The notes under the pieces were generated by a model. It was given only the letters and a program-made list of their open reading frames with translations, was not told where the DNA came from and ran no database searches. The translations under genes were made by a program, and so were the position numbers. 64,000 nt of DNA. Origin: Fictibacillus enclensis (GTDB taxonomy: Bacteria; Bacillota; Bacilli; Bacillales; Fictibacillaceae). Shown piece after piece: positions 12,745-20,700 of this stretch; the stretch's first letter is position 1; each line of letters opens with the position of its first letter. The stretch is from positions 1 to 64,000 of the forward strand of contig NZ_KQ758623.1 of assembly GCF_001457035.1 (NCBI RefSeq), given 5' to 3'.

Positions 12745-13016
12745 TACAGCGACAGCAAGGATGAGGAGAGTAAGTTTCTCATTTTCATATTAGAGAGAAC
12801 CACCTTGGCTGAAAGTGGTTTATGAAAAAGGAAACTGAAGTGCACCTCGGAGCCTTTTATCGAACCAATAGTAGATAAAAGCGGCCCTCCACGTTACGGA
12901 GTACAAGGGAAGAGCAAAAATACTGAATTTCCTCGTTGTTTTCGTATTTTTGTTGTTAAACAGAGTGGAACCGCGCCAAAAGCGTCTCTGTGCATATGCA
13001 CAGAGACGCTTTTTTA
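12745..13016 (+). promoter_or_regulatory. T-box riboswitch leader, cysteine specificity
   Basis: The canonical T-box AGAGTGGAACCGCG at 12962-12975 precedes a perfect 15-bp terminator. Upstream lies a long stem I region (about 12750-12905), in which TGC at 12841-12843 followed by A occupies the specifier position. TGC is a cysteine codon, and cysE-cysS downstream is a known Cys T-box target. Uncharged tRNA-Cys would stabilise the antiterminator and raise expression of serine acetyltransferase and CysRS. The specifier is inferred from position rather than a full fold. Confidence 0.85.
12981..13016 (+). terminator. T-box regulated terminator
   Basis: A perfect 15-bp inverted repeat starting AGCGTCTCTGTGCAT (12981-12995) pairs with 12996-13010 and runs into six T. 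This is the terminator that competes with the T-box antiterminator. Confidence 0.93.
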
Positions 13017-13041
13017 TATGCCCATGGGCGGGTTCCACGGG

Positions 13042-13144
13042 GTTTACAAGCGGAAATGGAAGATTTACCGGCGGAAATGAAGTAAATACAGGGCATAACA
13101 AAGGATTTAACCGCCGAAATCGCGCATTTACCCGCCAAAACAGG
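13042..13144 (+). repeat. Five degenerate 20-21 bp tandem units
   Basis: Five imperfect units lie head to tail at 13042-13061, 13062-13081, 13082-13102, 13103-13123 and 13124-13144. They follow a rough pattern GATTTACCGGCGGAAATGAA. Units 1, 2, 4 and 5 share the TTTA plus CGCCG/GCGGAAAT core; unit 3 is the most diverged. They sit between the T-box terminator and cysE, where no gene is present. Confidence 0.6.
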
Positions 13145-13173
13145 ATTATGGTCAACTAGAAGGCAAAGGTTAG

Positions 13174-15800: not shown

Positions 15801-16546
15801 TGAGCGAAGAATTTATTATCGGAAGAAACCCTGTACTCGAAGTGCTGCGTTCAGGAAGAGATATCAATAAAATTTTTGTGGGAGAAGGCTCTCAAAAAGG
15901 GCCAGTGAGCCAGGTCATACACATGGCCAAAGAAAATAATGTGCTTGTTCAGTTCGTTCCGAAAAAAAAGCTGGATTTGCTGAGTGATGGAGGAAACCAC
16001 CAGGGTGTCATTGCGGCAGTAGCGGCTTATGAATATTCAGAGATCGACGATTTATTTCAAAAAGCGGAAGAAAAGGGAGAAGATCCTTTTTTCATTATTC
16101 TGGATGAAATCGAGGATCCCCACAATTTGGGCTCGATCATCAGAACGGCTGACGCGGTCGGAGCCCATGGCGTCATTATTCCCAAACGGCGGGCGGTAGG
16201 GCTTACGGCGGCTGTTGCCAAAGCCTCCACGGGAGCCATTGAATATATCCCGGTTGTTCGTGTGACGAATATTGTTCAAACGATGAAGGAATTGAAGGAG
16301 CGCGGCCTTTGGTTTGTGGGAGCCGACATGAAAGGGCAAGAAGACTACAGGGAAGCCAAGCTGGATTTGCCGATCGGCCTTGTCATTGGAAGTGAGGGCA
16401 AGGGGATGGGCCGCCTGGTGAAGGATACATGCGACTTTCTTGTACGGCTGCCGATGGAAGGGAAGGTTACTTCTCTTAATGCATCAGTGGCAGCAGGCCT
16501 GCTCTTATACGAGGTTTACCGCAAACGCCATCCGCAATCATCATAA
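15800..16546 (+). CDS. rlmB: 23S rRNA 2'-O-methyltransferase, SpoU family
   Basis: This TrmH/SpoU-type methyltransferase is expected to methylate a ribose in 23S rRNA. The 248-residue product has an N-terminal substrate-binding domain (IIGRNPVLEVLRSGR) and a C-terminal trefoil-knot SPOUT domain. Its motifs DEIEDPHNLGSIIRTADAVG, IGSEGKGMGRL and MEGKVTSLNASVAAG form the SAM site. Start and stop each overlap the adjoining gene by one base. The substrate nucleotide is inferred from the family. Confidence 0.93.
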   Translation: MSEEFIIGRNPVLEVLRSGRDINKIFVGEGSQKGPVSQVIHMAKENNVLVQFVPKKKLDLLSDGGNHQGVIAAVAAYEYSEIDDLFQKAEEKGEDPFFIILDEIEDPHNLGSIIRTADAVGAHGVIIPKRRAVGLTAAVAKASTGAIEYIPVVRVTNIVQTMKELKERGLWFVGADMKGQEDYREAKLDLPIGLVIGSEGKGMGRLVKDTCDFLVRLPMEGKVTSLNASVAAGLLLYEVYRKRHPQSS

Positions 16547-17055
16547 TGGAAAACATCCTGATCGTTGACGGATACAATGTGATTGGAGCCTGGCCGGAGC
16601 TGAGATCCCTGAAAGACTTGGATTTTGCGAAGGCCAGGGATATTCTCATTGAAAAAATGGCAGAATATCAGGCATTTACCGGATACAGAGTGATCGTGGT
16701 CTTTGACGCTCACTTGGTGCCGGGCATTGAAAAGAAATCAAAGAACTATAAGGTTGAAGTCATTTTTACAAGAGAGAATGAAACCGCAGATGAACGGATT
16801 GAGAAACTGGCTTCGGAGTTTAAGAATGTGAATACCCGGATTTTCGTAGCGACTTCGGACTATACCGAACAATGGGTAGTTTTTGCTAAGGGGGCTCTTC
16901 GAAAGTCTTCCAGGGAACTGAAAATCGAGATGGAGGATATCGAAAAGCGGATTGACCGAAAAGTAAAGTCGGCCAGGGGACGCAACTTCTCGAGTATCTC
17001 TTTGTCTGAAGAAATCGCTGAAATATTCGAAAAATGGAGAAGAGGACAAAAATAA
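16546..17055 (+). CDS. yacP: YacP/Rae1-type NYN endoribonuclease
   Basis: This is a PIN-like NYN-domain RNase; the B. subtilis relative Rae1 cleaves mRNA in the ribosomal A site. The 169-residue product shows the NYN start ILIVDGYNVIGAW with the first conserved aspartate, VVFDAHLVPG in the middle, and TADERIEKLA and VATSDYTEQWVV with further acidic residues. The start overlaps the rlmB stop. It is the last gene of the cysE operon before the sigH promoter. Confidence 0.93.
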   Translation: MENILIVDGYNVIGAWPELRSLKDLDFAKARDILIEKMAEYQAFTGYRVIVVFDAHLVPGIEKKSKNYKVEVIFTRENETADERIEKLASEFKNVNTRIFVATSDYTEQWVVFAKGALRKSSRELKIEMEDIEKRIDRKVKSARGRNFSSISLSEEIAEIFEKWRRGQK

Positions 17056-17061
17056 ACAATC

Positions 17062-17091
17062 TTGACGCAATTTCCTGCCATGCTGTATAAT
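17062..17091 (+). promoter_or_regulatory. Promoter of sigH
   Basis: TTGACG (17062-17067) and TATAAT (17086-17091) are 18 bases apart and lie just after the yacP stop. This is a good sigma-A promoter. In B. subtilis sigH is also regulated by AbrB, which has no strict consensus that could be read here. Confidence 0.8.
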
Positions 17092-17138
17092 ATTGTTATA
17101 TTTTGCCTTGCATTCAGGCGCTGACCGGGGGGATTGTC

Positions 17139-17789
17139 GTGAGCATTTACCTCAAAGAAATGACGGTTCTGGATTATGAACAGATCGAAGACGAAAGTCT
17201 GGTAGAACATGTCCATGTAGGAGACAGTGCCGCGTTGGAATTTTTGATTAACAAATACAAAAATTTTGTGCGCGCAAAAGCAAGGTCCTATTTTCTAATC
17301 GGTGCTGACCGGGAAGATATTATCCAGGAAGGCATGATCGGCCTTTATAAAGCCATCAGAGATTATAAAGAGGACAAGCTTTCATCCTTTAAGGCTTTTG
17401 CCGAACTGTGCATCACACGGCAAATGATAACGGCCATCAAAACCGCAACAAGGCAAAAACACATACCGCTGAATTCGTATGTCTCGCTGGACAAGCCGAT
17501 TTATGATGAAGAATCGGACAGGACATTGATGGATGTGATATGCGGAACAAAGGTAACCGATCCGGAAGAACTCATCATTAACCAGGAAGAGTTCGATGAT
17601 ATCGAGCTGAAAATGGGTGAGATATTAAGCGATCTCGAACGGAAAGTGCTGATGCTCTACCTGGATGGAAGGTCATATTAGGAAATATCCATTGACCTGG
17701 ACAGGCATGTCAAGTCGATAGACAATGCACTTCAGCGTGTAAAAAGAAAACTTGAACGATATCTTGAATTACGGGAAATAACATTATAA
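17139..17789 (+). pseudogene. sigH: Sigma-H (Spo0H), interrupted by an in-frame TAG
   Basis: Sigma-H drives early sporulation, competence and stationary-phase genes. From GTG 17139, behind GGGGGGA, the frame matches Bacillus SigH with region 2 intact (KARSYFLIGADREDIIQEGMIG in two pieces). At 17679-17681 a TAG stands where homologues have glutamine (GRSYQEIS). The same frame then continues with EISIDLDRHVKSIDNALQ to its normal TAA at 17787-17789. The product would be 180 instead of 216 residues, lacking the region 4.2 helix that reads the -35 box. A single C-to-T change explains it. Nothing else is decayed, so the lesion is recent or a sequencing error. Confidence 0.9.
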
Positions 17790-18158: not shown

Positions 18159-18368
18159 ATGATGGCTGACATTGCAGAAAAAACAAGAAAGTCTCCTGCA
18201 AAGTTTTTATCCGACGTTAAGAAGGAAATGAAGAAAGTTAGCTGGCCGAAGCGGGATGAATTGATTCGCTATACAACGGTTACGATCGGTACTGTTATAG
18301 TGATGGCGCTCTTCTTCTGGGTAGTTGACCTAGGCATTTCAAAACTTGTTGAACTCATTGTTGACTAA
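18159..18368 (+). CDS. secE: SecE preprotein translocase subunit
   Basis: SecE is the small clamp subunit of the SecYEG channel. The 69-residue product has the cytoplasmic helix KFLSDVKKEMKKVSWPKRDEL, with the conserved VSWP, followed by one membrane helix (about 42-64). Two consecutive ATGs (18159 and 18162) are possible starts after GGGGGTAAC. The short Gram-positive form with one transmembrane segment is as expected. nusG follows after 84 bases. Confidence 0.94.
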   Translation: MMADIAEKTRKSPAKFLSDVKKEMKKVSWPKRDELIRYTTVTIGTVIVMALFFWVVDLGISKLVELIVD

Positions 18369-20512: not shown

Positions 20513-20534
20513 TTGGAATGTTGAAAATAAATAT

Positions 20535-20700
20535 CTATGTCATGCCGTAGACAGCAGGGGCTTTATGCTTAATCATCCTGCCGAGGTGTGTAGCACAGAA
20601 TACATCAATTTTTAATTGCTTGATTTCTGAAACTACGCCTTCATGTCTAACATGAAGGCTTTTCTTATGGCTACGGTATGAAGATGACTAGACTATTCTA
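20535..20700 (+). promoter_or_regulatory. L10 leader RNA
   Basis: The segment near 20545-20590 (CCGTAGACAGCAGGGGC, then ATCCTGCCGAGGTG) matches the Firmicute L10 leader that is bound by the L10(L12)4 complex. It is followed by a strong hairpin ending in T. Excess L10-L12 is expected to reduce rplJ-rplL expression. Confidence 0.82.
20637..20666 (+). terminator. Attenuator in the L10 leader
   Basis: A 10-bp perfect stem (GCCTTCATGT with ACATGAAGGC, three-base loop) is followed by TTTTCTT. It lies inside the L10 leader, so it is probably the regulated terminator. Confidence 0.85.

Follow-up and report, generated by a model that had tools for sequence, protein, structure and literature searches.

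The sigH (spo0H) gene of this Fictibacillus genome carries an in-frame amber codon that is found in no relative compared, arose recently and removes region 4.2 of the encoded sigma factor. The allele is probably a loss-of-function allele that arose in the isolate or in culture and makes the strain Spo0-like. This is an ordinary kind of event and involves no new mechanism. If real, the stop accounts for, or predicts, a strain unable to sporulate, and a developmental regulator may be broken in a genome that stands for its species.

The gene lies in a window of 64,000 nucleotides, the whole stretch of DNA that was analysed. Both the DNA and its translation place the GTG start at 17139, the usual TAA at 17787-17789 and an in-frame TAG at 17679-17681, with the rest of the frame open. 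The features of the locus are:

17139..17789, forward strand: sigH (spo0H) frame, from the GTG start to the usual TAA, with the TAG in between
17139..17681, forward strand: predicted translated part of sigH, 180 residues and then the premature stop, region 2 kept
17679..17681, forward strand: premature TAG, codon 181, a glutamine codon in 29 of 29 relatives' loci read
17682..17786, forward strand: sigH codons 3' of the TAG, 35 sense codons forming the remainder of region 4.2
16546..17055, forward strand: rae1 (yacP), upstream neighbour, intact by comparison with F. solisalsi
18159..18368, forward strand: secE, downstream neighbour, intact by the same comparison
17064..17093 (position approximate), forward strand: sigma-A-like promoter 5' of sigH, apparently intact, with TTGACG, an 18-base spacer and TATAAT, as read from the sequence

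An earlier sequence-only reading had the coordinates and frame of sigH right, and its count of 36 codons from the TAG to the usual stop holds if the final stop is included, the sense codons numbering 35. The protein sequence of these 35 codons is identical to that of Fictibacillus solisalsi, the nearest relative in the comparison, and searching the genome with an intact query returns one full-length match with 100% identity except for ‘1 TAG’. A single stop in the otherwise perfect frame of a conserved gene is a point mutation or a base-call error, beyond what chance alone would give. Upstream, the TTGACG/TATAAT pair and a G-rich ribosome-binding stretch, both read from the sequence, suggest that sigH can be expressed.

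The identity of the gene is supported by family models and by its position. The 180-residue product scores 345.9 bits against the SigH equivalog NF006148 (cut-off 208) and 311.6 against the SigH equivalog TIGR02859 (cut-off 294.8), and the gene occupies the conserved orthologue position between rae1 (yacP) and rpmG-secE-nusG. When the product itself is checked for both region 2 and region 4, region 4 is missing from the truncated protein. By these sequence comparisons the gene is a sigH orthologue, yet the sigma-H predicted from it is incomplete.

The loss is confined to the C-terminal part of the protein. Pfam Sigma70_r2 is found in the truncated and the intact proteins alike (residues 36-105), while Sigma70_r4_2 (residues 163-205, counted from the GTG) is found in the intact sister protein only and is absent from the truncated product. 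In an alignment to E. coli sigma-E, the stop falls within the first of the two helices of the helix-turn-helix, and the product loses both the supporting helix and the -35 recognition helix. Pfam and this alignment thus agree with the earlier reading that the product lacks region 4.2; the removal of the -35 recognition helix, which it had named, also stands, and the alignment widens the loss to the supporting helix. AlphaFold modelled region 4 of the intact sister protein with pLDDT values mostly below 50, and no conclusion rests on the model.

In the proposed mechanism, a C-to-T change would have made sigH codon 181 an amber codon, and translation would end after 180 residues. The product would retain region 2, with core polymerase binding and reading of the -10 element, and would miss the helix-turn-helix of region 4.2, which recognises the -35 element. 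It should therefore fail to direct transcription at sigma-H promoters, among them that of the spoIIA operon and Ps of spo0A, and if B. subtilis strains deleted for sigH are a guide, sporulation would be expected to arrest at stage 0 with very few spores or none. In B. subtilis, deletion of sigH yields zero spores at 12, 24 or 48 hours (PMC3084206) and abolishes spo0A Ps activity (PMC9931155). The present allele would share with the laboratory sigH (spo0H) nulls of B. subtilis the expected loss of sigma-H, which leaves those deletion strains sporeless (PMC3084206). Unlike them, it appears to be a natural nonsense allele, caused by a point mutation in a Fictibacillus, and its phenotype is a predicted one. 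The earlier reading had argued from Bacillus, whereas the host is a Fictibacillus and not a Bacillus in the strict sense; its premise that sigma-H is needed for sporulation is borne out in B. subtilis (PMC3084206), and the asporogenous strain that it proposed is one that we infer.

Because region 2 is complete, a truncated SigH might instead be partly active or altered in function, for example by keeping hold of core polymerase through region 2 in competition with other sigma factors or by using -35-independent promoters. Truncated sigma factors are often unstable, and the sequence carries no sign of selection for such an activity; the likelihood of this alternative is accordingly slight in the extreme.

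Comparison with relatives shows that the stop is confined to this genome. A 30-base pattern spanning the site, with either base permitted at the mutated position, had an exact match in one named record of the genome collection, F. solisalsi CGMCC 1.6854. Codon 181 is CAG or CAA at all 29 relatives' loci read, six of them from the same genus, and Q181 is an invariant column in an alignment of 11 proteins. Across the order, the intact sister protein found a match in 396 of 397 genomes; the sigH matches examined for stops cover 389 of these, with seven matching genomes outside the listing. Among the matches listed, an internal stop occurs in one of 389 genomes, this Fictibacillus genome alone. 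If real, the change is thus a natural amber allele in a gene otherwise free of internal stops among the 389 listed genomes of the order. A programmed or lineage-wide recoded stop is rejected, as no relative compared carries the stop. A literature search found no natural sigH nonsense strain. Stops flagged in four other genomes (G056, G099, G132 and G158, three of them of one genus) proved on opening to be natural C-terminal stops. One genome that appeared to lack sigH (G412) also lacks the neighbour rae1, which makes an assembly gap likelier than a loss.

The stop is also young. Over 41 kb, the window is 97.1% identical to F. solisalsi, which makes its source a Fictibacillus close to that species; the two sigH genes are separated by the nonsense change and 15 synonymous ones. 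Polarising these differences with a second congener assigns five of them to the branch of this genome: four are synonymous and the fifth is the stop, which arose there by one C>T. No amino-acid change is observed on this branch of sigH, against about 14 expected had the whole branch been neutral; as a rough bound, the neutral share of the branch is at most about a fifth. By this count the nonsense change is recent. An allele so young and without decay means, in turn, that sequence evolution alone cannot prove loss of function.

The main rival to a loss-of-function allele, though an improbable one, is a base-call or assembly error, in which case the TAG is not real and the strain's sigH is intact. 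Only one substitution is involved and the assembly is a 10-contig draft, one genome in 389 is a frequency that errors can yield, and the sigH frame lacks other decay while the neighbouring genes are intact. Substitution errors, however, are rare in modern assemblies, and comparison of 55 window genes with F. solisalsi over about 41 kb reveals no further premature stop.

Suppression of the TAG is unlikely, judging from the translation machinery that the genome encodes. Rfam identifies 57 tRNA genes in the draft, where a copy at the ends of the 10 contigs may be missing, and ARAGORN assigns ordinary anticodons to all 57, with no CUA, UUA or UCA anticodon among them. The sole glutamine tRNA anticodon is UUG, so that reading UAG requires a first-position mismatch. 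Release factor 1 is intact, and TAG is the normal terminator of seven of the 55 neighbouring genes. Taken together, the 57 ordinary anticodons, the intact release factor and the use of TAG by neighbouring genes argue against suppression, and the suppressor tRNA that the sequence-only reading had offered as an escape finds no support. A search pattern for amber suppressors gave 68 matches against 224 in a reversed control; one match lying across a tRNA anticodon loop belongs, by its coordinates, to tRNA-Arg(UCU).

A trace of full-length SigH through low-level amber readthrough is possible. In bacteria, near-cognate tRNAs naturally read UAG at a low level, a low dN/dS is frequently retained by genes that carry in-frame stops, and E. 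coli tRNA-Gln can misread UAG (PMC7918605, PMC5289835). Together with the unchanged protein sequence of the 35 codons after the TAG, the last two observations would fit a real stop at which readthrough supplies enough full-length SigH for sporulation. This is a distinctly poor prospect given a tRNA set whose only glutamine anticodon is UUG, an intact release factor 1, the use of TAG as a working stop in neighbouring genes and the absence of the stop from every relative, which leaves nothing to suggest selection for recoding. It is very improbable that this is a true natural-population allele in a strain that still sporulates, through readthrough or a sigma-H-independent route; if true, sporulation despite a natural stop allele would challenge the indispensability of full-length sigma-H.

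A recent loss-of-function allele is thus preferred, and the mutation would probably have arisen in this isolate or in the course of culturing, a setting that tolerates the loss of sporulation. Spontaneous asporogenous variants with premature stops in spo0A have been described in C. difficile ribotype 078 (PMC6757067), and a single isolate with a stop in an early sporulation gene is therefore nothing out of the ordinary. As in those variants, one isolate from a group of spore-formers is affected by a premature stop in a gene needed early in sporulation; unlike in those variants, where spo0A is hit, the gene hit here is sigH.

Other sporulation genes were sampled and named by reading their sequences, with additional family searches for spo0A and sigF. 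The frames of spo0A, spoIIGA, sigE, sigG and both sigK copies are open, sigA is intact, and spoIIAA, spoIIAB and sigF of the spoIIA operon are open, with a sigma-H-like promoter that is kept in congeners. No sigma-H site with fewer than two mismatches was seen upstream of spo0A. These sampled sequences suggest a spore-forming strain that has suffered one recent lesion, as opposed to a lineage long past sporulation.

Several further features of the genome and the window were observed. The genome holds two full-length, nearly identical copies of sigK about 6 kb apart (G000:C1:1983588 and 1989735; L032 and L033). Within the window, the stretch 12749-13147 holds a T-box leader, identified by Rfam, with a perfect 18-base palindrome at 12978-13013. 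Between this palindrome and cysE lie about five degenerate 21-base units, mostly found by reading; a repeat tool found two of them and Tandem Repeats Finder none. Finally, a ribosomal protein L10 leader at 20527-20674 occupies its expected position upstream of rplJ.
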